Positions 2,284 to 15,318 of a stretch of DNA of 32,542 nucleotides are shown in pieces; the stretch's first letter is position 1; every line of letters begins with the position of its first letter. The DNA comes from Candidatus Agathobaculum pullistercoris (GTDB lineage Bacteria; Bacillota; Clostridia; Oscillospirales; Butyricicoccaceae), in contig DXFS01000059.1 in the NCBI GenBank assembly GCA_019114345.1, positions 1 to 32,542 of the forward strand, in the 5' to 3' direction. The position numbers and the translations under genes are program-made. The notes beneath the pieces are model-generated. The model was not told the origin of the DNA. It worked only from the letters and a program-made list of their open reading frames with translations, and made no database searches.

Positions 2284-3558
2284 TCAGCCGAAGTGCTTCT
2301 CATTGTAATCATGCACCGCTTTAAACGCTGCCCAGATGTTCTCCGGGCGGGTGTCGCCGACGATGTTATGGATGGTGTTGAACACATAGCCGCCGCCCTC
2401 GAACAGGATGGGCAGGCGCTCGGTCACCTCGGCCGCGACCTCCTCGGGCGTGCCCTGCGGCAGGGTCGCCTGCGTGTCCACGCCGCCGCCCCAGAATACC
2501 AGCTTGTCGCCGTACTTGTCCTTGAGCTGCTTGGCGTCCATGCCCGCAGCGGACAGCTGCACCGGGTTGACGATGTCCAGCCCCATCTCGATGAAGTCGT
2601 TCAGCAACGGCTCGATCGCGCCGCAGGTGTGCATATAGGTCTTCCAGCTGGTGTTCTTGTGGATCCAGTCGCACACACGGGTGTAATAGGGCTTGTACAG
2701 CTGGCGGAACATTTCGTTGGACATGAACGGCGCGTTCTGCGTGCCGAAGTCCGTGCCCGAGATCCAGCAGATCTGGATGTTGTCTCCGCACGCCTGCTTG
2801 TAGATCTCGAGGTTCTTGAGCATGAACTCGGTCTGCATCTCGAACACTTCCATCACATATTCCGGATACAGCGCCTGCGCCATGACCCACTCGTCAAACT
2901 TGCGGATGCCCTTGGGGTGCTTTTCAAACGGCGCCGGGATCGCGCCCGGGTCGCCGAAGCCCGCGCCCGCGAGGTTGCCGATGACGCAGTAGTCGGTCTC
3001 GGTAAACAGGCGCTTGGATTCCTTTTCATAGTACAGCGCGGTCTCATCAGACATGACCGAGAAGAAGTTCTTGAAATCCTCGCGCGGGGTCAGGTTGTCC
3101 TCGTCCACCTCGGGCGCGCGGTCGATGATGTCGAAGAAGTAGCCGCCCGCCGGCATGTGGATGGACGGGGGCGCGGTGCGGTCACCCTGCGGGTACATCT
3201 CGATGCTGCCGTCCGGCCTCACGTCCCACTCGTTGCCCGCATTGACCATGCACTTGGTGCCGTCCGGCATGGTGAATTCCTTTTTCTTGCCTGTGTATGG
3301 CACGCCGAGGCTGTCCCCGGGATGGTTCATGCCGATTACGTCCGACTTCATCACCTGCCGCAGATCCTCGTCTACCACGCCGAGCATCTGCACGATCTCG
3401 AACACGTCCAGATCTTTTTCGGGCAGGCCCAGATAATCGCGCAGACGCTTTAAGGCGCACACGCTGATGCCGGTCTGGCCGGTCGCACCGAAATCGATCG
3501 GGATCCGGTCGGGCTGCTGGTGGTTGATGGCGGCAAGTACTCTTTCTCTCGATGTCAT
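2284..3558 (-). CDS. UroD-family zinc methyltransferase (MtaA/CmuA-like), substrate unknown
   Basis: This 424-residue protein begins T-S-R-E-R-V-L-A-A-I-N-H-Q-Q-P-D-R-I-P, the hallmark opening of the uroporphyrinogen decarboxylase superfamily branch that contains corrinoid- and thiol-dependent methyltransferases. An HTCG motif at H310-C312 matches the zinc-binding H-x-C of MtaA. The third ligand, a Cys in MtaA, is apparently replaced by His in TIHNI (about residue 397). True UroD is shorter and sits with haem genes, so methyl transfer is more likely (inference). The start is placed at 3558 because GGAGGGA precedes it by about 7 nt; the longer frame to 3591 has no SD. No corrinoid protein or methyltransferase partner is adjacent. 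The gene is divergent from the lipoprotein gene at 4251. Confidence 0.78.
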   Translation of the reverse strand: MTSRERVLAAINHQQPDRIPIDFGATGQTGISVCALKRLRDYLGLPEKDLDVFEIVQMLGVVDEDLRQVMKSDVIGMNHPGDSLGVPYTGKKKEFTMPDGTKCMVNAGNEWDVRPDGSIEMYPQGDRTAPPSIHMPAGGYFFDIIDRAPEVDEDNLTPREDFKNFFSVMSDETALYYEKESKRLFTETDYCVIGNLAGAGFGDPGAIPAPFEKHPKGIRKFDEWVMAQALYPEYVMEVFEMQTEFMLKNLEIYKQACGDNIQICWISGTDFGTQNAPFMSNEMFRQLYKPYYTRVCDWIHKNTSWKTYMHTCGAIEPLLNDFIEMGLDIVNPVQLSAAGMDAKQLKDKYGDKLVFWGGGVDTQATLPQGTPEEVAAEVTERLPILFEGGGYVFNTIHNIVGDTRPENIWAAFKAVHDYNEKHFG

Positions 3559-3609
3559 GCTGGTTCCCTCCGTTTTGCCGGCGCGCAGCACCGGATTGAT
3601 GATGGCTTC

Positions 3610-3638
3610 ATTATAGCGGCAGCATTCCCGGATTGGAA
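3610..3638 (-). promoter_or_regulatory. Candidate promoter for the UroD-like gene
   Basis: On the minus strand a perfect TATAAT (3615-3610) lies 17 bp from a weak -35, TTCCAA (3638-3633). The weak -35 and the repeat arm just upstream (3645-3676) suggest regulator-dependent expression (inference). Confidence 0.5.
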
Positions 3639-3644
3639 CAGGCT

Positions 3645-3676
3645 TTCTTGCGCATTATTTGCGATTTTTTGCTGTA
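3645..3676 (+). repeat. Inverted repeat arm A with three phased TTGC repeats
   Basis: This 32-bp segment recurs in inverted orientation at 3965-3996: 20 bp (3657-3676) match perfectly, then 5 differ, then 7 match. Inside the arm TTGCG, TTGCG and TTGCT start at 3648, 3659 and 3669, that is 11 and 10 bp apart, about one helical turn each. It lies directly upstream of the weak -35 of the UroD-like gene. The arrangement resembles a tandem-repeat operator more than a transposon end, though a small mobile element is not excluded. Confidence 0.6.
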
Positions 3677-3964
3677 GAAGAAAAACGGGATAAGGAAGAA
3701 CGAGCATATCAGGCGTTGGGATTGCTTTGGGAAAAAAGAAATCCAATCCAATATGGCACCTTTAGTATCCTGTGGCTGAACTTGGCATTGTGATTTTTGC
3801 GGCAGGTGGAACAGCCTTGCAACTCAGCAGCAGCGGAGTGCGAAATAGATGGCAGCGGTGCGGCTTTGTTTCACTTGTGGGTTTTACAGGAGTGGAAAAT
3901 TTTTGTGCAGGTTGTGAAATAAGCAATGCGGAAAAATGCGCAAAATTGCTAATACGGTGGATTT
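3677..3964. other. A/T-richer intergenic stretch without a supported gene
   Basis: This is the core of the gap between the UroD-like gene and the lipoprotein gene (3559-4250). Base composition is visibly lower in GC than in the flanks. A 160-codon open frame crosses it (3772-4254), but it lacks an SD and a recognisable domain and runs into the SD region of the next gene, so I do not call it. Apart from the two repeat arms I see nothing else in the gap. Confidence 0.5.
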
Positions 3965-3996
3965 TACAGCAAAAAATCGCAAATCAACAGCAAGAA
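3965..3996 (-). repeat. Inverted repeat arm B with three phased TTGC repeats
   Basis: This is the inverted copy of 3645-3676. On the plus strand it shows AGCAA, CGCAA and AGCAA starting at 3968, 3978 and 3989, again 10 and 11 bp apart. It lies about 255 bp upstream of the lipoprotein start. Keeping the phased repeats while the 5 bp between matching blocks changed favours a protein-binding site (inference). Confidence 0.6.
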
Positions 3997-4250
3997 CGGT
4001 TATTTCTTTATGTTGGCCAAAAAGTTATGATAAAAGCACAATCAATGTCTGGTTCGGCGGATCAGCCCCCTGAAATGGACAATAAATGTGCTGTATCATA
4101 CCTGAATAATATGAGTTGGCGATGTGCAGAAGAGAACCGTTATATGGACGGAAAAAACGCAGCACGCTTGCCGGCTCTGTTTATGAGGCAGGCAGCCGGA
4201 TACCTGTGGGAGCATCAGCCGGAGAAAGACAAAAAGAGAGGAGAAGAAGT

Positions 4251-5261
4251 ATGAAAAAGAGGGCAATTGCAATGCTGCTTGCTGGTGCGTTGTGTGCATC
4301 CATGGCTGGCTGCTCGTCCACCGGAGACACTGGCGGTGGAGATACGGCTGCTTCGGGTGAGTCAAAATACCATGTAAGCATCATCCTCAAAACAACGGCG
4401 GCCGAATACTGGAAGTTTGTGCAGGCAGGAGCAGAAGCTTATGCGGAAGAGCATCCGGATGAGGTCGCGGTAGAGGTCAAGGGGCCCCCGTCCGAAACCT
4501 CTTTCCAGGATCAGCTGAACATGATCCAGACCGATCTAAGCGATGTAAGCTATGACGGCTACATTATTTCGCCTCTGCAGCAGGATATGGTCGCCAATCT
4601 GATCCAGGATACCGAGAAACCCGTCATTGCATTGGACACAAATATCGAATCAGACAAGGTAGTCACTTTTGTCGGCACGGGTAACGAGGAAGCCGCAAAA
4701 CAGGGAGCGATTGCCGCTGTCGGGGCAGCCAAGGAAGCTGGCTGGACTGAAATCCAGTGTATCGAGATTGCAGGTGTGCAGGGTGACAGCACCAATACTG
4801 CCCGCATGAACGGCTATAAGGCTGGTATCGAGGAAGCGGGCGGCGACTTCCTGGAAGACGAAGTGCAGTACGCGGAAGCAACTGCAACCCGCGCAGTGGA
4901 CGCGATGAATGGTATTATTTCCCGTTATCCGGACGGCATTGCAATCATCTGCGCCAATAACGATGATATGGCGATTGCAGCGGCAAAAGCTGCCCGCGAT
5001 TCGGGAAATCAGGCGTACGCGAATACGATTTTCCTCGGCTTTAACGGTGACCGCGCAGCCTGCGAGGCGATCCTCGCCGATGAGCTGACTATGTCGATCG
5101 CGCAGATGGCGTATGAGATGGGTTATAAGTCTGTTGAGGCGATGGTTCAGACACTGGATGGCGAACAGGTAGAGCCCAACATTGACTCCGGCTCGGAAGT
5201 CATTACAATCGATAATGCACAGGAGCGCCTGGACACGCTTGACGAGCAGCTGGGCAGCTGA
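4251..5261 (+). CDS. Sugar-type ABC transporter substrate-binding lipoprotein (Peripla_BP_4/RbsB-like)
   Basis: This 336-residue protein has a lipoprotein signal peptide: K-K-R near the start, a hydrophobic core, and the lipobox MAGC ending at Cys21, followed by a Ser/Gly/Thr-rich linker. The mature part begins Y-H-V-S-I-I-L-K-T and contains YDGYIISPLQ, KPVIALDTNI and AIICANNDDMA, typical of ribose/galactose-type periplasmic binding proteins (periplasmic-binding type 1 fold). It would sit anchored outside the membrane and deliver a sugar or sugar-like ligand to a permease. The SD (GAGAGGAG) is 7 nt before ATG 4251; longer upstream starts lack one. No ATPase or permease gene accompanies it: a terminator follows and the next gene is on the other strand. 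The ligand cannot be told from the sequence. Confidence 0.87.
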   Translation: MKKRAIAMLLAGALCASMAGCSSTGDTGGGDTAASGESKYHVSIILKTTAAEYWKFVQAGAEAYAEEHPDEVAVEVKGPPSETSFQDQLNMIQTDLSDVSYDGYIISPLQQDMVANLIQDTEKPVIALDTNIESDKVVTFVGTGNEEAAKQGAIAAVGAAKEAGWTEIQCIEIAGVQGDSTNTARMNGYKAGIEEAGGDFLEDEVQYAEATATRAVDAMNGIISRYPDGIAIICANNDDMAIAAAKAARDSGNQAYANTIFLGFNGDRAACEAILADELTMSIAQMAYEMGYKSVEAMVQTLDGEQVEPNIDSGSEVITIDNAQERLDTLDEQLGS

Positions 5262-5532: not shown

Positions 5533-6285
5533 TTACAGAACCTGCTTGTCCCGCAAGCGGCAGGCCGCTGCAACCTCGTCGGGGAGTCCATCGTCCGACA
5601 CAATGCCGTCGATATCTTCGAGCGAAGCAAAGGTGAATGTGCTTGTCAAGCCGACCTTTCCGGCATCCATCAGCACATAGCTGTGTTCCGCCTGCGCGAT
5701 GACCGCGCGCTTGAGCTGTGCTTCCTCCTCCATGCCGCAGGAGAAACCGCTTTTTTCTGCGTAGCTTGTGGTGCCGATCAACGCAAGATCGAAGTTCACC
5801 TGCCCGATGAACTGCATGGGATGAACGCCGTACAGGCTTTGGCTGTACCGGTTGAGAAAACCGCCGGGCAAAAATACCCGCGCTTTGGTCAGCCTGAGCA
5901 GCTCGCCGGCACAGGACAGGCTGCCCGTAAATATTTGATAGCGTTCGTCCGGAATCAGACGGGCAAGCGCGGTCGCAGTACTGCCGGAGTCCAGATAGAT
6001 GGTCATATCCGGCCGCAGCAGGTCAAGCGCCTTACGCGCGATCTGTGCCTTTTCAGGCGCAGCGCGCAGGCTGCGGCGCAGCAGGAAGTCGTCCGTACCG
6101 ACGACGACCTCGACTGACTTAGCCCCCCCGTGTACGCGTACCAGACGGCGCTCCTCGTCGAGCGCCTTGAGGTCGATGCGCAGGGTCATTTCGGACACCT
6201 CCGGGAACGCCGCCTTGAGCTGGGCAAAGCTCACCGTGCCCAGCCGGTTGACAAATTCCACGATCTTCTGGCGGCGTTCCTGCAT
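5533..6285 (-). CDS. DeoR-family transcriptional regulator of the hexitol operon
   Basis: This 250-residue protein has the normal length of DeoR-type repressors. An N-terminal winged helix (R-R-Q-K-I-V-E-F-V, then VSEMTLRIDLKALDEE, about residues 4-55) is followed by a DeoRC sugar-phosphate sensor domain with YLDSGSTATALARLIP (about residues 98-113) and D-L-A-L-I-G-T-T-S. DeoR repressors of sugar operons usually sense a phosphorylated sugar; the fructose-operon members respond to fructose-1-phosphate, which would fit the adjacent PfkB kinase (inference). ATG 6285 is preceded by GAGAGGAAG; the longer frame has no SD. It is the third gene of the operon, 38 bp after the dehydrogenase. A candidate operator lies upstream of the operon at 8663-8677. 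Confidence 0.86.
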   Translation of the reverse strand: MQERRQKIVEFVNRLGTVSFAQLKAAFPEVSEMTLRIDLKALDEERRLVRVHGGAKSVEVVVGTDDFLLRRSLRAAPEKAQIARKALDLLRPDMTIYLDSGSTATALARLIPDERYQIFTGSLSCAGELLRLTKARVFLPGGFLNRYSQSLYGVHPMQFIGQVNFDLALIGTTSYAEKSGFSCGMEEEAQLKRAVIAQAEHSYVLMDAGKVGLTSTFTFASLEDIDGIVSDDGLPDEVAAACRLRDKQVL

Positions 6286-6323
6286 GAAGGTATCTTCCTC
6301 TCTCTTCTTTGTTGATGGATGAA

Positions 6324-7589
6324 TTATTCGGTTTCCACCCAGTTTGCGAGCAGATATTCCTCTGCCTCCGGGCACCACAGGCCGTTGTGCGCATCCACAA
6401 TATCGGCCAGTGCAGTAAAGCGTGCGTCTTCCGCACCCTTGGCGCGGAAATCCGCGATCGCAGTCAGCGGCATGGTGATGTGGGTGTAGATCAGCTTTTT
6501 GCCGCCCGGGATCTTGGGCAGGTTGAGCGTGGTTTCCGCTGCGGCATCCAGGCCGCCGATGTGGGTGACCATGACCGACGGGTCGATGCGGCCCGCAGCG
6601 GTCAGTTCGAGCGACTCGATCATATCAGCCGTGTTGCCGCCGGTCGTGCCGATGACATGGGTGGAGTTGTAGTGTACGTCGTAGAAATTCAGCTTGGCGG
6701 AGAACTTCGGGTCGGTCGGGCCGGCGAAGAAATTCAGGCAACCGTCGCGGCCGAGCACGTCGCTCGACAGTTCAACGACCTGCGCCACCGGCGCATAGCA
6801 GAACACATCATCAAAGCCGGTGCCGCCGGTCAGGGCGCGCAGTTCGGCGGCCGGATCTGCCATGTCCGCGGTGTTGACAAAGTGCAGCTCAATGCCGTCC
6901 TTGGCTGCCTCCTCGACCGGGAACAGCTGCGCAGCACGCGCAAGGCGCTCAGCGTTGATATCGGTCACGACCACGAGCGAGGGGCGCACGTCGCGGTGCA
7001 GCGCATAGGTCAGCGCGCCGAGGCCCATCGGGCCTGCTGCGGCGAGCAGCGCGAGCTTGCCGCCTTTGCGGATGCCCATTTCGTGCTCATACACGCCCAT
7101 GCGGGTGTGGAAGCAGGCGTTGAACGCGCCGATGCTGCAGCTCATCGGCTCAGCGAGGGATGCTTCGTAATACGCCTTGCCCTTGTATTCGAGCAGGCAG
7201 CCCAGCTCCATGACCTCAGCCGGGATGATGCAGTAGGTCGCGTCGCCGCCGAAGAATTCATACGAGTAGCCGGGCGACCACATGGTGCCCTTGTAGTTGA
7301 GCGCGGGCTGCAGGGTGAACTTCATGCCGGGCTTGAACTTGTCCGCATGCTTTGCGCCGACCTTGACAATATCGCCCGCAAACTCATGGCCCATGATGGC
7401 CGGGTGGTCGGCGATGTCCTCGTGGACACGCTTGTGCTTGGTGCCGAGGATCGCGCACTTGTAGGTAGACATGCAGATGCTGTCGGACACGACCTTGACC
7501 AGAATCTCATCGTCTTTGATCTCGGGCAGTTCGAATTCGTCCAGACGAAGGTCGTTGGCTGCATGCAGACGGACGGCTTTTGCTTTCAT
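6324..7589 (-). CDS. SorE-like zinc-binding alcohol dehydrogenase (hexitol-phosphate dehydrogenase candidate)
   Basis: This 421-residue protein is a medium-chain dehydrogenase/reductase. It has D-S-I-C-M-S-T-Y-K near residue 40, the GHEFAGDIVKVG block, Y-S-Y-E-F-F-G-G-D-A-T-Y-C-I-I-P, E-P-M-S-C as a catalytic-site segment, and a Rossmann core AAAGPMGLGAL. The overall look is that of L-sorbose-1-phosphate reductase (SorE). The four-cysteine structural-zinc lobe of classical alcohol dehydrogenases is not visible between the GHE block and GGDATY. SorE interconverts L-sorbose-1-P and D-glucitol-6-P. With the mannitol PTS nearby and no mtlD in the window, oxidation of mannitol-1-P is a plausible role (inference). 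ATG 7589 follows an AAGGAG SD by 9 nt. It is the second gene of the pfkB-dehydrogenase-deoR operon. Confidence 0.8.
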   Translation of the reverse strand: MKAKAVRLHAANDLRLDEFELPEIKDDEILVKVVSDSICMSTYKCAILGTKHKRVHEDIADHPAIMGHEFAGDIVKVGAKHADKFKPGMKFTLQPALNYKGTMWSPGYSYEFFGGDATYCIIPAEVMELGCLLEYKGKAYYEASLAEPMSCSIGAFNACFHTRMGVYEHEMGIRKGGKLALLAAAGPMGLGALTYALHRDVRPSLVVVTDINAERLARAAQLFPVEEAAKDGIELHFVNTADMADPAAELRALTGGTGFDDVFCYAPVAQVVELSSDVLGRDGCLNFFAGPTDPKFSAKLNFYDVHYNSTHVIGTTGGNTADMIESLELTAAGRIDPSVMVTHIGGLDAAAETTLNLPKIPGGKKLIYTHITMPLTAIADFRAKGAEDARFTALADIVDAHNGLWCPEAEEYLLANWVETE

Positions 7590-7642
7590 AATAAAACGCT
7601 CCTTCTTATCGCGCAATATGTGGATGGCCGTGATTCCGGCCG

Positions 7643-8572
7643 TTAAATCTGATGGAATACAACGCGCGGCAGCAGCTCATCAACTGCGCTGCGCTCTGCG
7701 GCCTGCGAACCACTGCACATGACGTTGGCTGCGCTCGTAGCGACCGCCAGACGGACGGTTTCCTCTTCGCTCATGCCCTGTTCGGCGGCATAGGCGAGTG
7801 CGGCGACCATGCTGTCGCCCGCGCCGACCGTGCTGCCGACAGGCACCTTGAGGCCCTCAGCGCGGTACGCTCCATCCTTGCTGACAAACAGCGCTCCGTC
7901 TCCGCCCATAGACACGACCACGCGTTCCACGCCGCCCGCAATTATCTCGCGCGCTGCGGCGAGCAGGTCGTCCGCGGTCTCGAGCGTACGTCCGGTCAGG
8001 CGGGACAGCTCGTGGTTGTTGGGCTTGGCCAGATAGGGCTTTGCCGCAAGGCCGTGCGAAAGAGGCTCGCCGTCCGCGTCCAGGAACACGCGCGCTCCCG
8101 CTTCGCGGCAGGCGGCCGTCCAGACACCATAGGTGTCTGCCGATGCGCCCTTCGGCAGGCTGCCGGACAACACCACAATGTCGCCAGACCGGATGGACTG
8201 CGTGAGCGCCGCAAGCATGCCGTCCAGCGTTTCCTGCGTGACCGTCAGGCCGGGTTCGTTTAAGTCGGTGTTGGTATGCCTTACCGGGTCGATGACCTTG
8301 AGGTTCGTACGGGTCTCGCCCTCGACGAAGGTGAACTTGCAGGCGATGCCAAGCGCGTCCATCGCGTCCGCAATGCGGCGGCCGGTCGCGCCGCCGAGCA
8401 GGCCGACCGCCGTGCTGGCGCCGCCCAGCTTGGCGATCACCTTGGAGACGTTCAGACCCTTGCCGCCCGGATCGGTGCGCATTTTGGTGATGCGGCCCAC
8501 CGCATCGATGGAAAAGTCCGGGATCTCCACGGTTTTATCCAGTGCGGGATTAAGTGTTACTGTGATGATCAC
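7643..8572 (-). CDS. PfkB-family hexose-phosphate kinase (1-phosphofructokinase type)
   Basis: This 309-residue protein begins I-I-T-V-T-L-N-P-A-L-D-K-T, the characteristic start of the 1-phosphofructokinase/tagatose-6-phosphate kinase group. It carries DPGGKGLNVSKVIAKLGG (about residues 34-51) and the C-terminal ribokinase signature VGAGDSMVAAL, whose Asp is the catalytic base. It would phosphorylate fructose-1-P, or possibly tagatose-6-P or fructose-6-P, to the bisphosphate. The start is GTG 8572, not an ATG: AGGAGG lies 7 nt upstream and the product then begins as in the family; the longer frame to 8749 runs through the promoter region. It is the first gene of the operon with the dehydrogenase and DeoR regulator. 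Sequence alone does not settle the substrate. Confidence 0.85.
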   Translation of the reverse strand: MIITVTLNPALDKTVEIPDFSIDAVGRITKMRTDPGGKGLNVSKVIAKLGGASTAVGLLGGATGRRIADAMDALGIACKFTFVEGETRTNLKVIDPVRHTNTDLNEPGLTVTQETLDGMLAALTQSIRSGDIVVLSGSLPKGASADTYGVWTAACREAGARVFLDADGEPLSHGLAAKPYLAKPNNHELSRLTGRTLETADDLLAAAREIIAGGVERVVVSMGGDGALFVSKDGAYRAEGLKVPVGSTVGAGDSMVAALAYAAEQGMSEEETVRLAVATSAANVMCSGSQAAERSAVDELLPRVVFHQI

Positions 8573-8662
8573 AACATTACCTCCTGCTGGTGCGGCGGAC
8601 TGCGCCCACCGCTGATATTCAAAACGAAAGCCTGTAATTATAATAACAACAATTAACTTTGA

Positions 8663-8677
8663 TTTCAACTGTTGAAA
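8663..8677. promoter_or_regulatory. Candidate operator upstream of the pfkB operon
   Basis: A perfect inverted repeat, TTTCAAC-T-GTTGAAA, lies 91 bp before the pfkB start in an A/T-rich promoter region that also has a TATAAT-like box and repeated TTGTTG words. It is a natural candidate site for the DeoR regulator encoded by the same operon (inference). Confidence 0.5.
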
Positions 8678-8710
8678 CAACAATTTTTTGCTTTTGTTTT
8701 TATCCAAAAT

Positions 8711-8741
8711 ATACAAAACCGCCGGAAGTGATTTCCGACGG
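8711..8741 (-). terminator. Terminator after mtlR
   Basis: On the minus strand CCGTCGGAA pairs with TTCCGGCGG (one G-U pair) around a 5-nt loop and is followed by TTTT. It lies 26 bp past the mtlR stop, so mtlR and the pfkB operon are separate transcription units. Confidence 0.7.
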
Positions 8742-8767
8742 GTCTGCAATGATAAATGTATGGTTTT

Positions 8768-10795
8768 TCATTCTCCGGCCAGCTCACGGCGGAACCGCAG
8801 GCTGAGGTCTGTTTCCAAAAGCCGGACTGCCTGGTCGCGCTCTCCGGCGCGCAGGCTCTCGATCAGCGCCGGGCGGTCGATCAGCACGGCGCTGACCTCC
8901 TGCATGACGCGCTGCCAGACCGGTTCCGGACGGTCCGGCGCAAGCATGACCACCGCGCCGAGGATTTCGCGCCCGTTCTCTGTGACCGGATAGGGCAGGC
9001 GGAGGTAGCCCAAACAGCAGCTGTCTACCGCGCTGGTCTTGCAGTGAAGCAGGTGCGCGCGCAGGGGCGGGATATAGGTATCGCCCAGCGCCTCGCGCCG
9101 CGCGAGCGCGGTCTCGATCTCACGCAGCTGCTGCGGGGATCGGGAAAACAGCCGTGCGGCTGCATGGAGCACTTCCCCCCGCGTGCGGGGCGCCGGGATA
9201 TCATCGATTGCCATCGTGTCCAGCAGCCCGACCAGGCAGGCGCTGAGCGCGTCTGCATAGCGCAGGTCGGCGGGCTGCGGCATGGGCTGCACTGCGGCGG
9301 ATGCCTGTTCGCGGAAGGTCTCGGCCGCGCTTTGCAGCAGAATACGGTCTTTTTCCTGCAAGACCGCACTGACTACCACATGTGGGAAGTCTGCAGACAG
9401 CGGTACAGTGGAAATAATCAGCCCAATGCCTTCTCCGCGCAAGGCATCTGTGTCCAGTCCGCGCAGCGGACACATGCGTTCGACCGCAATATCCGGAAAC
9501 TCCCGGTCAAGCTGACTGGTCAGAAAGCGGCTGGTCGCCATGCCCATCGGGCATACGACTACCGCACGCAGGCGGCGGCGCGTCTGCGCGCATTTTTCAA
9601 GCACCGCGCCAAAGTGCATGGCGAGGAAGCCGGCTTCTTCATCCGGGATCGGCGGTATCCGGAGCGTATGCGATGTTTGGTCACACACGCGGCGTACCGC
9701 CGCCCAGAGTTCGGCATATTGGGTGCGCACGGCTTCAAGCTGCGGATTTTCGATGCGTTCTCCGCGTTCCATACGAAGCAGCATGGGGCGCAGATGGGCG
9801 CACAGATCGGTGCGGAAAGTGGAAAAACCGGTCAGTTCCACGCCGGTTTCCCGTTCCATCCCGCGGATGAGCAAAGCGGCGAGCTGGCTGATGCGCAGCT
9901 CTTCCGGATCGTCCCAGTCCTGCTCTCCCAACGCCGCGTGCAGGTAGTGGTCGAGATAGGCAGCTTCGCCTGCGGGCAGGCGCATACCCAGCGCTCCTTC
10001 GAGCGAGATCTGCAGTGCGGCAGCATCGCGCCCGGCTTTTCCGCGCGGGCCATCGGCTTTCAGGCGGCCGCTGCGTATCTGCCCCGCAAGCAGGGTCAGA
10101 TGCAGTACAAGCGAGATAAAAGCGCTGTCGCTGAATACAAACCGCCCGCTGCGCTCAAATCCCTGCAGCACGCGGGCAATCGCCTGCATATCTTTCCGGT
10201 CAAGCAGGCCGAGCGTCGAACCATCCGGCTGGCTTTCAATGAACTGTCCCCAATCCAGCTGGGTCAGCTGTGGGCGCAGGCGGATCCCCATGGCACGGCG
10301 CAGGTTTTCCGGCGGGCCTTCCAGCCAGACGCCCACGCCTGTGCGCCGTTTGACTGTTACCCCGCGTGCGAGCAGCCATTCGCCGGCCGCATTCAGGTCG
10401 TTTGCAAGTGTGTGCTCGGAGATGTCCAGCTTTTCCGCCAGCCACTGGGTCTTGACTGGCTCGCCCGCCGCAAACAGCAGGGCAAGCAAGCGGTCGATGC
10501 GCTCGTTTTTGGACAGTACTGTGCTGCTGCCATCCAGAAGTGTGCGCAGGACAGCACGGCGCTCCTCGTCTTCATCCAGCCGCACGCCTTGTCCCGGGCT
10601 GCGGACAAAGCGGAATCCTGCCGCTTCAAGCCATTTTTCCATGCCGGGCATTTCGCGCATGACCGTGCGGCGGCTTACGCCGATGCTTTCCCCCAAGGCT
10701 GCCGCCGTCAGCCACACCGGAGGCAGGTCGGCCAGTTTGCGGATCAGCCTTCGCCCGTTATCGGTCAATATGGGTAAACGGTTTTGCCGCTCCAC
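8768..10795 (-). CDS. mtlR: MtlR-type PRD-containing transcriptional activator with EIIB-like and EIIA-like domains
   Basis: This 675-residue protein has the modular layout of Gram-positive MtlR. Two N-terminal helix-turn-helix units come first (one with LGESIGVSRRTVMREM, a second with L-A-E-K-L-D-I-S-E-H-T-L-A-N-D-L). Two PTS regulation domains follow in about residues 180-400, then an EIIB-like domain with VVCPMGMATSRFL, then a C-terminal EIIA-like domain with H-L-L-H-C-K-T-S-A-V. Phosphorylation of the PRDs and of the EIIA and EIIB residues by the PTS normally tunes DNA binding. The start is GTG 10795 because AGGAGGG lies 6 nt upstream; ATG 10813 would place that SD inside the coding region. 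It is divergent from the mannitol PTS gene, its expected target. B. subtilis MtlR has a similar size. Confidence 0.85.
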   Translation of the reverse strand: MERQNRLPILTDNGRRLIRKLADLPPVWLTAAALGESIGVSRRTVMREMPGMEKWLEAAGFRFVRSPGQGVRLDEDEERRAVLRTLLDGSSTVLSKNERIDRLLALLFAAGEPVKTQWLAEKLDISEHTLANDLNAAGEWLLARGVTVKRRTGVGVWLEGPPENLRRAMGIRLRPQLTQLDWGQFIESQPDGSTLGLLDRKDMQAIARVLQGFERSGRFVFSDSAFISLVLHLTLLAGQIRSGRLKADGPRGKAGRDAAALQISLEGALGMRLPAGEAAYLDHYLHAALGEQDWDDPEELRISQLAALLIRGMERETGVELTGFSTFRTDLCAHLRPMLLRMERGERIENPQLEAVRTQYAELWAAVRRVCDQTSHTLRIPPIPDEEAGFLAMHFGAVLEKCAQTRRRLRAVVVCPMGMATSRFLTSQLDREFPDIAVERMCPLRGLDTDALRGEGIGLIISTVPLSADFPHVVVSAVLQEKDRILLQSAAETFREQASAAVQPMPQPADLRYADALSACLVGLLDTMAIDDIPAPRTRGEVLHAAARLFSRSPQQLREIETALARREALGDTYIPPLRAHLLHCKTSAVDSCCLGYLRLPYPVTENGREILGAVVMLAPDRPEPVWQRVMQEVSAVLIDRPALIESLRAGERDQAVRLLETDLSLRFRRELAGE

Positions 10796-10838
10796 CGCAT
10801 ACCCTCCTTTCATCCCTTTTTCCCCACAAGTTAAAACT

Positions 10839-10848
10839 ATTATAGCAC
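10839..10848 (-). promoter_or_regulatory. Extended -10 promoter of mtlR
   Basis: The minus strand reads TGCTATAAT (a TG-N-TATAAT extended -10; TATAAT at 10844-10839), about 45 bp before the mtlR start. No good -35 is seen, as is common with extended -10 elements. Confidence 0.55.
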
Positions 10849-11058
10849 AGTGGAACGGAAAAAGATATATGAACCTGTTCCAGTGAAGCTGCGGCAAATT
10901 TGCCCATCAGGGATGGTGCCAAATCTGCTACAGGAAAGCGGATAAGGCAGAAACGATTGGACAAATAGATCAAATGCAGCGGTAGAAAATTGGCGGATTT
11001 GGATAAAGCGCCGCGGGTTGGCACTGAACCGGCGGGACAATGATGCCATAACTATTGC

Positions 11059-11088
11059 TTGCCCGCACGGGGGAGCAGACTATACAAT
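11059..11088 (+). promoter_or_regulatory. Candidate promoter of the mannitol PTS gene
   Basis: TTGCCC (11059-11064) and TACAAT (11083-11088) are spaced by 18 bp, leaving a leader of about 85 nt before the start codon. It sits in the 384-bp divergent region shared with mtlR, which contains no supported gene. Confidence 0.45.
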
Positions 11089-11179
11089 AAAGACACAAAA
11101 CGAAAGCCACGGCGCTTGTGAAAGCCTGAAACAAGCCGCTAACCACGAAGAGAGAAAGAAAAAAGGAGTTGCTGTTCGT

Positions 11180-13063
11180 ATGAAAAATGCGATTGCCAGA
11201 TTTGGCAAATTCCTCAGCGCCATGGTCATGCCGAATATCGGCGCTTTTATCGCCTGGGGCTTTATCACGGCTCTGTTTATCGACACCGGCTGGATCCCGA
11301 ATGCGGATCTGGCATCCATCCAGCCGTTTATGCTCACCTTCCTGCTGCCTGTGCTGATCGCGGCGCAGGGCGACAAGATGGTCGGCGGCGACCGTGGACG
11401 CGTCATGGGTGCAATCGCAGTCATGGGCTGCATCGCGGGCGTTAACGGAACGGAAGGCCAGCCGATGCTGATGGGCGCGATGATCATGGGCCCGCTCGCG
11501 GGCTGGGTCATCAAAAAGTTTGACCAGGCCATGGAGGGCCGTATGCCGGCCGGCTTTGAAATGCTGATCAACAATTTCTCGGTCGGCATTTTCGGCATGG
11601 TCCTTGCCATCATTGGCTATTATGCGATCGGCCCGATCATGAGCGCGATCCTGAGCGTGCTGTCCGCCGGCGTTGCGTTCCTGGTGAACCACAGCCTGCT
11701 GCCGCTGGTTTCCGTGTTCCTCGAGCCGGCCAAGGTATTGTTCCTCAATAATGCGATCAACCACGGCGTGTTCACGCCGATCGGCGCGGAGCAGGTCGCT
11801 GAGGCGGGCAAGTCGATCATGTACATGCTCGAGACAAACCCCGGCCCCGGCCTGGGCGTGCTGCTGGCCTACATGTTCTTCTCCAAGGACCGCACGACCC
11901 GCGGTTCGGCACCCGGCGCGATCATCATCCATTTCTTCGGCGGCATCCATGAGATCTATTTCCCGTACATCCTGATGAACCCGGTTGTCATCATTGCGCC
12001 GATCGTCGGCAACGCCTGCGCGATCCTGTTTTTCTCCATCATGAACGCCGGTCTGAACGGCCCGGCGGCACCCGGCTCGATCATCGCATTTATCATGATG
12101 TCCCCGCGCGACAGTATCATCGTGAGCATCATCGGCGTGGTGATTGCGGCAGCAGTATCGTTCGTGATCGCGTCGCCCATCGTCAAGATGGCAGGCGCCA
12201 AAAACCTTGAGGACGCACAGGGCAAGATGCAGCAGATGAAGGCCGAGGCCAAGGGCACGGCAGTGCCTGCAGCAAGCGCTCCGGTAGCGGACGGCGGCGC
12301 GGTCAAGAAGGTCATCTTCGCGTGCGACGCGGGCATGGGCTCATCCGCCATGGGCGCGACCAAGTTCCGCAACCGCATCAAGGCCGAGCGGCCCGACCTG
12401 ATCGTCACCAACACCAGCGTAGACAACATCCCGGCGGATGCGGACGTTGTTGTCTGCCAGCAGGTGCTGGCTGACCGGGCACGTGCCAGTGCGCCGCAGG
12501 CGCATCTGGTTGCGATCGGCAACTTCCTGGCTGACCCCGGACTGGATGAGCTGTACCACTCGCTGACCGCACAGAAGCCCGCGGACGCACCGCAGGCTGC
12601 CGCGGATGAGCCTGCTGCTGCAGAGGAGAAAAAGCGTACTACGATCAATGCGGACTGCATCAAGCTCGGTCTTCAGCCAGTCTCCAAGGAGAAGGCAATC
12701 CGTGCGGCCGGACGTCTGCTGGTCGAGCAGGGATGTGTGGATGAGTCTTATATTGATGCGATGCTGGAGCGCGAGAAGCTGGTTACTACTTATATGGGAA
12801 TGGGCATTGCCATCCCGCACGGCACGACCGAGCAGAAGGCGCGTGTCAAGAAGTCCGGCATCGTTATGCTGCAGTACCCCGAAGGAGTGGACTTTGGGGA
12901 GGAAAAGGCGCAGCTGGTGTTCGGTATCGCCGGTGTAGGCGACGAGCACCTCGACCTGCTGAGCAATATCTGCACGGCGCTCGAGGACGAGGAGGTTCTG
13001 AACAACCTCAAGACCACAAAGGATGTATCCTATGTGCTCAAGTGCTTGGAATTCCATGACTGA
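11180..13063 (+). CDS. mtlA: Mannitol-specific PTS transporter, fused EIICBA
   Basis: This 627-residue membrane protein closely follows E. coli MtlA (637 residues). The EIIC part has several membrane segments and the GIHEIYFPYILMNP motif with Glu258, matching the mannitol-binding Glu257 of E. coli. A Lys/Ala-rich linker near residues 345-375 leads to EIIB with FACDAGMGSSAMGA (Cys382). A second Ala/Pro/Glu-rich linker near residues 470-490 leads to EIIA with GIAIPHGT (His547). All three phosphotransfer sites are present, so it can take mannitol in as mannitol-1-phosphate without a separate MtlF. The SD AAAAGGAG lies 11 nt before ATG 11180, a slightly long spacing. It is monocistronic, ended by a strong terminator, with no mtlD after it. 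Confidence 0.95.
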   Translation: MKNAIARFGKFLSAMVMPNIGAFIAWGFITALFIDTGWIPNADLASIQPFMLTFLLPVLIAAQGDKMVGGDRGRVMGAIAVMGCIAGVNGTEGQPMLMGAMIMGPLAGWVIKKFDQAMEGRMPAGFEMLINNFSVGIFGMVLAIIGYYAIGPIMSAILSVLSAGVAFLVNHSLLPLVSVFLEPAKVLFLNNAINHGVFTPIGAEQVAEAGKSIMYMLETNPGPGLGVLLAYMFFSKDRTTRGSAPGAIIIHFFGGIHEIYFPYILMNPVVIIAPIVGNACAILFFSIMNAGLNGPAAPGSIIAFIMMSPRDSIIVSIIGVVIAAAVSFVIASPIVKMAGAKNLEDAQGKMQQMKAEAKGTAVPAASAPVADGGAVKKVIFACDAGMGSSAMGATKFRNRIKAERPDLIVTNTSVDNIPADADVVVCQQVLADRARASAPQAHLVAIGNFLADPGLDELYHSLTAQKPADAPQAAADEPAAAEEKKRTTINADCIKLGLQPVSKEKAIRAAGRLLVEQGCVDESYIDAMLEREKLVTTYMGMGIAIPHGTTEQKARVKKSGIVMLQYPEGVDFGEEKAQLVFGIAGVGDEHLDLLSNICTALEDEEVLNNLKTTKDVSYVLKCLEFHD

Positions 13064-13147: not shown

Positions 13148-13819
13148 TTATTCCTGAATATCATTTTCAAAGCGGCCGATCTTATCAGCCTTGCCGATCA
13201 CGGCAACGATATCGCCGGCCTGGAAGCGGAATTCCGGCGAGAAGTCTACCTTGGTCTGGTGGTCGCGCTCGATGGCGATGATGTTGATGCCGTACCTGCG
13301 GCGAACATCAGACTCGATCACGTTTTTGCCTTCCAGGAAACCGCCGACCTGGATGCGGCGGACCTCTACCTGATCGTCAAGGGAGATATAGTCCAGCAGA
13401 TTGCCCGAGATCATGCGCTTGCCAATGCGCACCGCCATATCGGATTCAGGATATACAACCGACGCGCCCAGATGCTTGAGCACTTCGCCGTGCTCCCGGC
13501 TGTTTGCTTTGGAAATGACGTGCGGCACGCCCATTTTAATGACCATCATCGTGGTGAGAACACTCACATCCACCTTTTCGCCGATGCAGATGGTTACCGT
13601 CTGGCAGTTTTGGATACCGGTTTCCTCCAGTGATTCCTCGCTGAGCGTTTCAATAACAAAAGCGAAATCAGTATACTTGCGCACGGCCTTGACTTTGGCC
13701 TCATCCTTGTCCACTGCAATGACTTCCTTGCCGGCCTCTGCAAGCGTCTGCACCAACGCGGTGCCGAACCGTCCCAGTCCGATAACACCGAACGATGTGG
13801 GGAAATGTTGCTTTTTCAT
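13148..13819 (-). CDS. ktrA: KtrA/TrkA-type potassium uptake regulatory subunit (RCK)
   Basis: This 223-residue cytosolic protein is a full RCK unit. The N-terminal Rossmann domain has GVIGLGRFGTAL (about residues 11-22) and V-I-A-V-D-K-D, the nucleotide-binding motif with an acidic ribose-binding residue. RCK_C follows at about residues 140-215. It forms the ring that gates KtrB in response to nucleotides, and in many Firmicutes its C-terminal domain also binds c-di-AMP. ATG 13819 is preceded by GAGGT at a normal distance; a TTG start at 13837 is possible but less likely. It lies 10 bp after ktrB in the same operon. A single RCK unit, not a tandem one, indicates Ktr rather than Proteobacterial TrkA. 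Confidence 0.9.
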   Translation of the reverse strand: MKKQHFPTSFGVIGLGRFGTALVQTLAEAGKEVIAVDKDEAKVKAVRKYTDFAFVIETLSEESLEETGIQNCQTVTICIGEKVDVSVLTTMMVIKMGVPHVISKANSREHGEVLKHLGASVVYPESDMAVRIGKRMISGNLLDYISLDDQVEVRRIQVGGFLEGKNVIESDVRRRYGINIIAIERDHQTKVDFSPEFRFQAGDIVAVIGKADKIGRFENDIQE

Positions 13820-13829
13820 AGCGGTTACC

Positions 13830-15134
13830 TCATCCAATCATAATCTGTTCTTCTGTATAATGCGCGCTCGGATCCGGACGGTTGATCCAGATCGAGAGCA
13901 GTGTAAATGCTCCCAGCCTGCCGGTGTACATGGTTAAAATAATGATCAGTTTGCTCAGCACACCCAGATCAGGCGTGATGCCGGTCGAGAGCCCAACCGT
14001 ACCGAAAGCGGAAACAACCTCAAACACAAGCTGGATAAAATCATACTCCGGCTCAAGAATGCACAGCAGGAAAGTGCCGATGCATACAACGAGTACGGAC
14101 AGCAGTGCAATCACAGAAGATTTGCGCAGCACTTCGTCCGGCAGGGTGCGGTGGAACGCGCCTGCGCGCCGCTTGGAGATCACGGTCCGGACCTCCTGCA
14201 TCAGGGCAAAAAAGGTAGTGGTCTTGATACCGCCGCCGGTCGAACCGGGGGAAGCGCCGATGAACATCAGGATAATCAGCACAAACAGTCCGGCGTTTGT
14301 AAACGACCCGATCGAATAGGTGGAAAATCCCGCAGTTCGCGCAGACACACTGTGAAAAAATGCGCCCAGCCAACTGATCTCCTCCGTTGCTTTGAGCAGA
14401 AGCGTACCGATCAAAAGCAGGACTCCGGTCGTTGTCAGAACGACCTTGGAGTGAAGGGTCAGTTTGCGGAACGAACGGCAGCGGTTGATATCCAGAATAA
14501 CAAGAAAGCCCAGACCGCCAAAGATGATCAGACCGCAGGTGGTCAGGTTGAGCAGGATGTCGGTCTGGTAGGGGATCAGGTTGCGCAGGCCGCCCAGAAT
14601 ATCAAAGCCCGAATTGTTGAATGCGGCAATGGAGTGGAAAATACTGATCCAGAGCGCCTGACCGAACGGGTAATCCTGTGCGAACGAGATAAAGCTGAGC
14701 ACAACACCCGCTCCTTCAAAGCACAGCGTCATGATCAAAATGGCTTTGACCAGCCGGACCATACCGCTGAACCCGTCCACATTGAGCGCTTCCTTGACCA
14801 GAAGGCGGCTTTTGATGCTGACGCGGCCGCCCGCGGCGAGGATGAGGCCCACGCCAACCGAAGACACGCCCAGACCGCCCACCTGGATCAGCCCGGCCAC
14901 CACGGCCTGACCAAAGGCGGTGAAATGATCGGCCGTGTCGATCGCGATCAAACCGGTAACGCAGACTGCACTGGTCGAGGTGAACAGCGCGTCGATCGGG
15001 GTTACTTCCGCGCCGGGCCGGATTGAGGCGGGCAGAAGAAGCAGCCCGGCACCGATCAGGATGACGAGCGCGAAACCCAATGCGATCAGCCGCCCGGGCG
15101 GCTGCCGCTCGATAAAGTTGTCGAAGTGTGACAT
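13830..15134 (-). CDS. ktrB: KtrB/TrkH-type potassium uptake membrane subunit
   Basis: This 434-residue membrane protein has the four membrane-pore-membrane repeats of the SKT family. The four filter segments are visible: SAVCVTGLIAID, FNNSGFD, ARTAGFSTYS and FGTVGLSTGI, each with its key glycine. It takes up K+ (often with Na+) together with KtrA. The start is placed at ATG 15134 (S-H-F-D-N-F-I-E-R-Q-P-P-G), where the homologous protein begins. No SD is near this ATG; the only good one (15187-15180) is 45 nt upstream, with a 34-nt hairpin between them. A GTG at 15278 would add 48 residues with no membrane or domain content and no SD. ktrA follows 10 bp after the stop. Confidence 0.88.
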   Translation of the reverse strand: MSHFDNFIERQPPGRLIALGFALVILIGAGLLLLPASIRPGAEVTPIDALFTSTSAVCVTGLIAIDTADHFTAFGQAVVAGLIQVGGLGVSSVGVGLILAAGGRVSIKSRLLVKEALNVDGFSGMVRLVKAILIMTLCFEGAGVVLSFISFAQDYPFGQALWISIFHSIAAFNNSGFDILGGLRNLIPYQTDILLNLTTCGLIIFGGLGFLVILDINRCRSFRKLTLHSKVVLTTTGVLLLIGTLLLKATEEISWLGAFFHSVSARTAGFSTYSIGSFTNAGLFVLIILMFIGASPGSTGGGIKTTTFFALMQEVRTVISKRRAGAFHRTLPDEVLRKSSVIALLSVLVVCIGTFLLCILEPEYDFIQLVFEVVSAFGTVGLSTGITPDLGVLSKLIIILTMYTGRLGAFTLLSIWINRPDPSAHYTEEQIMIG

Positions 15135-15247
15135 GATGATGCTGGAAACAGACGCCGCAAGGCGGAAGCCTGTTTCCGACCTCCTTTGTATGCTGCCGCC
15201 TGACGGCAGATGTATTGATGCAGGAACCGAATAAGGAAAATGCGCAA
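15086..15247 (-). CDS. Possible upstream ORF overlapping the ktrB start (53 codons)
   Basis: AGGAGG at 15257-15252 lies 4 nt before TTG 15247, which opens a 53-residue frame that crosses the ktrB leader hairpin and ends 49 nt inside ktrB in another frame. The peptide is basic and has no recognised domain. Its translation would unfold the leader hairpin. It may be a regulatory leader peptide or chance; the short SD spacing and TTG start keep confidence low. Confidence 0.25.
   Translation of the reverse strand: MRIFLIRFLHQYICRQAAAYKGGRKQASALRRLFPASSCHTSTTLSSGSRPGG
15144..15177 (-). promoter_or_regulatory. Hairpin between the SD and start codon of ktrB
   Basis: On the transcript the 8-nt arms GGAAACAG (15177-15170) and CTGTTTCC (15151-15144) pair perfectly and enclose a second small GC stem (CGCC/GGCG). 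AAAGGAGG (15187-15180) lies 2 nt before the hairpin and the ATG 9 nt after it. Removing the 34-nt hairpin leaves an 11-nt SD-to-start spacing; the linear distance is 45 nt. Confidence 0.6.
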
Positions 15248-15318
15248 CTGTCCTCCTGTATGGCAGGGCATCACGCACACGGCGCAGAGATTTGATACCG
15301 GTTCTCTAAACAGAATAT

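Follow-up and report, generated by a model that had tools for sequence, protein, structure and literature searches.

Genes of the mannitol island

We analyzed a 32,542-nucleotide stretch of DNA from Candidatus Agathobaculum pullistercoris (contig DXFS01000059.1; hereafter the window), which is contig 24 of a 2.06-Mb metagenome-assembled genome (MAG) with a completeness of 77%. An island of five intact genes occupies positions 5533-13063. Four of them (deoR, a dehydrogenase gene, pfkB, and mtlR) are encoded on the minus strand, and only mtlA lies on the plus strand. The island is a variant of the phosphotransferase system (PTS) mannitol pathway: it encodes a mannitol transporter and a zinc dehydrogenase related to Escherichia coli YggP, and it lacks mtlD, the gene for the mannitol-1-phosphate dehydrogenase MtlD. 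Mannitol is a polyol that is common in the diet, and annotation of its pathway normally seeks mtlD.

The mtlA gene (11180-13063, plus strand) encodes a mannitol enzyme II (EII) with fused C, B, and A domains that matches the Pfam PTS EIIC, IIB, and IIA families. The protein scores 757.7 bits against the NCBIfam mannitol IICBA model PRK15083 (cut-off 589) and 463.6 bits against TIGR00851, just short of the cut-off of 468.4, and its IIC domain is 55% identical to that of E. coli MtlA. A preliminary description of this DNA, made from the sequence alone, had credited the transporter with all three phosphotransfer residues. All three are present (Cys382 in IIB, His547 in IIA, and Glu258 in IIC), but an EII has two phosphoryl carriers, which we take to be Cys382 and His547; the third residue, Glu258, is presumably the motif glutamate of IIC. 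Divergent from mtlA, mtlR (8768-10813, minus strand) encodes an MtlR-type PRD regulator (PF00874, 58.9 bits) whose EIIA-like tail scores 24.4 bits, under the Pfam cut-off of 27. No convincing inverted repeats were found in the gap between mtlR and mtlA.

The other three genes form a pfkB-yggP-deoR set. The kinase gene (7643-8572, minus strand, GTG start) encodes a PfkB-family protein of the FruK (1-phosphofructokinase) type. The protein exceeds the cut-off of the 1-phosphofructokinase model TIGR03828 (342.5 bits; cut-off 292) and fails those of LacC (167.2; 409.55) and PfkB-II (159.6; 353), and the solved structure that it matches best in sequence is that of the fructose 1-phosphate kinase 2abq. 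The dehydrogenase gene (6324-7589, minus strand) encodes a protein with ADH_N and ADH_zinc_N domains (PF08240 and PF00107), and deoR (5533-6285, minus strand), the last gene of the set, encodes a DeoR-family regulator (PF00455, 134.7 bits; PF08220). The Pfam and NCBIfam scans agree with the preliminary description in its DeoR, MtlR, and EIICBA calls, and in its assignment of PfkB to the 1-phosphofructokinase type, and the genes lie at the place that it stated.

We compared the island with 80 related loci (the best 80 of 574 relatives, all at least 80% identical, from 79 assemblies, with L063 and L068 sharing one). Within 8 kb of the dehydrogenase gene, MtlA is encoded in 73 of these loci, DeoR in 75, and PfkB in 63 (56 in the same direction), but MtlR in only 9. 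The preliminary description had raised the question of whether the components stay together, and they mostly do so, with the exception of MtlR. Five of the seven loci without MtlA end at a contig edge, and the six genomes to which these seven belong (L063 and L068 are among them) all encode MtlA elsewhere. The remote MtlA of G006 and G007 is only 48-49% identical, and neither dehydrogenase type adjoins it. At 19 of the clustered loci (for example, L014, L019, L023, L026, and L137), ptsI, the gene for PTS enzyme I, is part of the operon or close to it; 18 of these loci have YggP and one has MtlD (L158).

A perfect palindrome (TTTCAAC-W-GTTGAAA; TTTCAACAGTTGAAA) lies at 8663-8677, approximately 90 bases ahead of pfkB, and is present in one copy in the window. 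Its exact core was found in 6 of 81 loci, the window included. Allowing up to two mismatches, we found it ahead of pfkB or yggP in 22 of the other 80 loci, including some without MtlR, and not at this place in the remaining 58; matches this loose also occur elsewhere by chance. The palindrome is a candidate DeoR operator in the window's relatives.

A YggP-type dehydrogenase in the place of MtlD

The closest matches of the dehydrogenase in a plasmid collection are E. coli YggP (57% identity), a Photobacterium protein (56%), and then annotated SorE proteins (47-49%). Its top matches in a sequence search of solved structures are sorbitol dehydrogenases (E = 5e-14), with GatD far lower (6e-4), and none of the NCBIfam models listed for it is matched above its cut-off. 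In a tree of 75 rows, built by a quick method and containing several long branches, all 37 of the MtlA-linked dehydrogenases (including E. coli YggP) fall on one side of a branch with 98% support in the Shimodaira-Hasegawa-like approximate likelihood ratio test (SH-aLRT), and three SorE rows group across it. Also on the YggP side are one dehydrogenase from another context (L146) and the outgroup, GatD, which cannot be placed on account of its long branch. The window dehydrogenase belongs to the YggP subfamily, both by its position on the YggP side of the tree and by its mannitol-type EII neighbor. It had been described as SorE-like, which holds at the level of the family, but its nearest relative is YggP.

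Residues Cys39, His68, Glu69, and Glu147 are the likely zinc ligands: they align with C38, H59, E60, and E144 of GatD, which we take to be zinc ligands of that enzyme, and YggP and SorE share these columns. Basic residues common to YggP and SorE, among them Lys43, His51, and Lys52 (the numbering omits the first Met), may hold the phosphate of the substrate. An AlphaFold2 model of the dehydrogenase, computed from 12 closely related rows, reached a mean predicted local distance difference test score (pLDDT) of 50 and was set aside, and a suspected YggP fusion in G107 proved to be merely a long GC-rich frame.

We surveyed the dehydrogenases encoded beside mannitol-type EIIs in a sample of the class (196 genomes, 14 of which, including the window's own, have a mannitol EII) and in a sample of the phylum (398 genomes, 43 of which have a mannitol EII, at 46 places). 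Leaving out the window's own locus and that of G114, which was counted in the class set, gave 44 phylum loci. MtlD is encoded at 34 of these, YggP at 9, neither at 1 (L234), and both at none. Among the 15 EIIs with an IIC domain in the class sample, 9 have MtlD (two EIIs at L155 share one), 4 have YggP, and 2 have a short-chain dehydrogenase alone; L136, which has YggP and has lost IIC at a contig end, was counted separately. In G080, G114, and G214, the gene order is mtlA-mtlR-IIA-yggP, and in other genomes it is mtlA-mtlR-IIA-mtlD; gene clusters in this comparison were named by eye where no family scan is cited. The window shares with the classical mtlA-mtlR-IIA-mtlD operon its transporter type and a PRD-type MtlR, and several of its relatives share the same dehydrogenase slot. 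In contrast to the classical operon, MtlD (PF08125) is replaced here by an unrelated zinc dehydrogenase, and a 1-phosphofructokinase and a DeoR regulator are added. At L138:2194-5432 and L161:4603-8000, the mannitol-type EII is accompanied by a short-chain dehydrogenase and by neither MtlD nor YggP, which makes these loci a third kind.

The EIIs were placed in a tree of 83 rows that includes 20 of the 80 related loci. The YggP label requires five changes on this tree, at least three of which are forced by well supported branches, and a single clade of YggP-linked EIIs is rejected (approximately unbiased test, p-AU 9e-71). E. coli CmtA, whose gene adjoins yggP, groups with four MtlD-linked EIIs. 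Because the tree rejects one origin of the YggP-linked EIIs, we conclude that the dehydrogenase partners were swapped repeatedly, and we therefore argue that the transported substrate has stayed mannitol. It is very probable that the YggP-type dehydrogenase replaces MtlD at mannitol-type EII loci. The proposal of a mannitol island without mtlD is strengthened accordingly, as the dehydrogenase recurrently fills the place of mtlD beside mannitol-type EIIs and was never found alongside MtlD in the loci that we examined.

A search of the window's own genome with PF08125 (Mannitol_dh_C) returned one protein, a 532-amino-acid UxuB/YdfI-like oxidoreductase that is not MtlD and that adjoins a protein we read as UxuA. 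Across 50 genomes of the 80 related loci, all of which carry relatives of the dehydrogenase, 28 have some PF08125 match and 22 have none. Each of the 60 matches was set against E. coli MtlD, UxuB, UxaB, and YdfI, and in only five genomes (G016, G030, G032, G035, and G037) was any protein more similar to MtlD than to the rest; an MtlD-like protein was not found in the remaining 45. In the five genomes, the MtlD-like proteins are approximately 400 amino acids long and are encoded away from the island, as adjacent diverged pairs (L097, L102, L110, and L116) or singly (L096 and L098). At none of the 80 related loci does a gene for MtlD lie within 8 kb of that for the dehydrogenase. The ten close relatives with the same kind of locus (G001-G010) have no MtlD, and their PF08125 proteins are all of the UxuB, UxaB, or YdfI type. 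The absence of mtlD noted in the preliminary description thus extends from the window to the genome, within the limits of a MAG that is 77% complete, and to its ten close relatives, which makes incompleteness of the MAG an unlikely cause.

Fructose-1-phosphate as the proposed product

In the pathway that we propose, MtlA would import D-mannitol as mannitol-1-phosphate, YggP would oxidize the carbon beside the phosphate with NAD+, in the manner of SorE, to give D-fructose-1-phosphate, and the FruK-type kinase would convert this product to fructose-1,6-bisphosphate (FBP). Control would be exerted by MtlR and by the DeoR-type repressor, which possibly senses fructose-1-phosphate, as the preliminary description suggested, and binds the palindrome at 8663-8677. 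We infer the substrate, the oxidized position, the product, the use of NAD+, the owner of the operator, and its effector; the proposed role of YggP as a mannitol-1-phosphate 2-dehydrogenase draws on its genomic position, its family, and stereochemistry. We put the probability that YggP has replaced MtlD and that fructose-1-phosphate is its product, taken jointly, at roughly 0.6.

A study of SorE describes the reduction of L-sorbose-1-phosphate to glucitol-6-phosphate, a reaction beside the phosphate (PMC12817954). Counted from the phosphate end, mannitol-1-phosphate and glucitol-6-phosphate match over the first three carbons, and oxidation of mannitol-1-phosphate beside the phosphate gives D-fructose-1-phosphate, as the preliminary description had reasoned. 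The kinases point in the same direction. All nine linked kinases that we tested (eight beside YggP and one beside MtlD, at L158) exceed the TIGR03828 cut-off, and they are below the LacC and PfkB-II cut-offs wherever those models matched. In the phylum sample, a 1-phosphofructokinase is encoded near the EII at 5 of 9 YggP loci versus 0 of 34 MtlD loci (Fisher p = 1.3e-4), and in the pooled samples at 6 of 13 versus 1 of 43 (p = 3.3e-4); relatedness was not removed from either test, and L136 and the window were left out. These p values overstate the evidence, because the tree offers too few independent pairs (three). FruK is encoded elsewhere, above the cut-off, in 22 of 23 YggP genomes without an adjacent kinase (16 of the kinase-less related loci and seven sample YggP operons; L050, the seventeenth such related locus, is not included), and the match in the twenty-third is partial, at the edge of a contig. 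The class-wide rate is lower (85 of 196 genomes). Five YggP operons encode an FBPase of one of two unrelated families (PF03320 in E. coli, as YggF, and PF06874 in L014, L015, L017, and L029), and neither type occurs in any MtlD locus among the 180 loci screened. These FBPases fit the entry of carbon as FBP.

Several observations weigh against fructose-1-phosphate as the product. In the class sample alone, linkage of the kinase does not differ significantly between YggP (1 of 4) and MtlD (1 of 9; p = 1), and the three tree-independent pairs are too few for the link to reach significance. No kinase is nearby at 17 of the 80 related loci or at 4 of the 9 YggP loci of the phylum sample, and FruK adjoins one MtlD locus (L158). 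FruK is likewise present in all seven class-sample genomes with MtlD and MtlA, so that its presence in the whole genome failed as a means of separating YggP from MtlD genomes, and the window's own genome encodes two further FruK-like kinases just below the cut-off. Adjacency to an FBPase is thin: it was seen in five operons and at no other YggP locus among the 180 screened for the two types. Moreover, YggP/SorE relatives lie away from MtlA in 45 of 51 class-sample genomes, and the family therefore need not have a single activity.

In the main alternative, YggP replaces MtlD yet oxidizes the far carbon, C5, to give fructose-6-phosphate, and the kinase is incidental or acts on fructose-6-phosphate. 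The 17 related loci without a nearby kinase and the FruK of the seven MtlD-MtlA genomes count in its favor. MtlD itself makes fructose-6-phosphate from mannitol-1-phosphate (PMC11519228), GatD, a distant zinc-dependent relative, is named a 5-dehydrogenase, and a PF00365 phosphofructokinase is kept in all 19 genomes that we checked, the window's own included. The last result rules out a genome that lacks 6-phosphofructokinase, and it narrows an earlier proposal that the pathway skips this enzyme: the enzyme is retained, and the route would bypass it for mannitol only. We nevertheless regard oxidation at C5 as unlikely, as the closest characterized relative, SorE, acts beside the phosphate, the nine linked kinases exceed the 1-phosphofructokinase cut-off, and both the kinase link in the phylum sample and the FBPases set YggP operons apart from MtlD loci.

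A second alternative, in which the substrate of the EII and YggP is a polyol other than mannitol, such as glucitol (with L-sorbose-1-phosphate as the YggP product), appears quite improbable. It draws on the interconversion of glucitol-6-phosphate and L-sorbose-1-phosphate by SorE and on the TIGR00851 score, which misses the cut-off by 5 bits. On the other side stand the PRK15083 score, far above its cut-off, the 55% identity of IIC to that of E. coli MtlA, and the interleaving of YggP- and MtlD-linked EIIs in the tree, with its forced changes; in addition, a linked fructose-1-phosphate kinase would be ill-suited to L-sorbose-1-phosphate. Phenotypes provide one case each way. Holdemanella biformis and Faecalitalea cylindroides both have the island and no PF08125 match, and a phenotype table lists the former as mannitol-positive and sorbitol-negative and the latter, against our proposal, as mannitol-negative (PMC6538751). 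This evidence is weak, because the table, in the portion available, names no strains. Finally, it is very improbable that the missing mtlD is an artefact and that YggP belongs to something else: the MAG is only 77% complete and five of 50 related genomes encode MtlD-like proteins away from the island, but G001-G010 have only UxuB/UxaB/YdfI-type proteins, PF08125 has no match in G080, G114, and G214, which have the YggP operon and an estimated completeness of 100%, and MtlD is near YggP at none of the 80 loci.

The E. coli cmt/ygg operon and other contexts of YggP

Besides the classical operon, the island can be set beside three known systems. In E. coli K-12, the operon cmtB-cmtA-yggP-yggF-fumE-yggC (L128:3977-9331) likewise places yggP directly after a mannitol-type EII gene, CmtA lies amid mixed EII lineages, and a GlpX-type FBPase, YggF (PF03320), is encoded in this operon. 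Unlike the window, the operon has no annotated PfkB-type kinase (YggC is kinase-like by NF006742, with no Pfam match), and has the MtlR-domain protein FumE/YggD (PF05068) in place of PRD-type MtlR and DeoR. SorE is of the same medium-chain dehydrogenase/reductase family as the window dehydrogenase, has the same zinc-ligand columns, and probably reacts at the same position. It differs in lying across the supported tree branch and in adjoining a mannose-type EII, a type that Pfam did not detect among the island genes; the SorE loci in Klebsiella and Lactiplantibacillus stretches have a short-chain dehydrogenase and no annotated fructose-1-phosphate kinase. In Haloarcula hispanica, carbon from mannitol also reaches FBP through fructose-1-phosphate and 1-phosphofructokinase, but free mannitol is taken up, oxidized to fructose, and phosphorylated by ketohexokinase, with no mannitol-1-phosphate step in the route as described (PMC11519228).

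At least 80% of the length of the cmtBA-yggP DNA is conserved in 5,338 of 5,426 E. coli genomes, a count made at the DNA level with reading frames left unchecked, and IS1 lies in this region in two of five listed E. coli records. The cmtB promoter is reported to lose strength in a crp mutant (PMC3105977). According to another report, imported fructose was the only previously documented E. coli source of fructose-1-phosphate, which the global regulator Cra binds as its ligand, and FruK running in reverse is a further source (PMC11157272). We suggest tentatively, and with more doubt than confidence, that YggP-made fructose-1-phosphate defines a widespread second bacterial mannitol pathway that includes E. 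coli cmtBA-yggPF, in which YggP would be a fructose-independent source of the Cra inducer and YggF would convert FBP to fructose-6-phosphate. An FBPase beside E. coli YggP would make sense if YggP forms fructose-1-phosphate. E. coli would then have, in addition to imported fructose and reverse FruK, one more source of the ligand of Cra, and its nearly universal cmt/ygg operon, which has no proven role, would have a testable function. Gut Bacillota that seem unable to use mannitol might also use it, and a known transporter would have repeatedly changed its partner enzyme. In the open literature (titles and the starts of abstracts, with most subscription papers outside the scope), we found no report of the conversion of mannitol-1-phosphate to fructose-1-phosphate or of a function of YggP.

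Some relatives of the dehydrogenase have other neighbors. At L146:1768-8579, a YggP that groups among the MtlA-linked ones adjoins a type I phosphodiesterase (PF01663) and an apparent ATP-binding cassette (ABC) importer with a solute-binding protein (PF13416), a context that perhaps reflects scavenging of a polyol phosphate from a phosphodiester. YggP/SorE relatives in Clostridia (L141, L142, L144, L147, L151, L237, L244, and L246) share a stretch with DeoR and a dehydrogenase E1 (PF00676); the partners of E1 at these loci were read as E2 and E3, a short-chain dehydrogenase is often present, and there is no mannitol EII. The neighbors of the island within the window, at 2284-5261 and 13148-15278, look unrelated to it and comprise an MtaA/UroD-like methyltransferase, an RbsB-like binding protein, and TrkA/TrkH-like potassium uptake genes.

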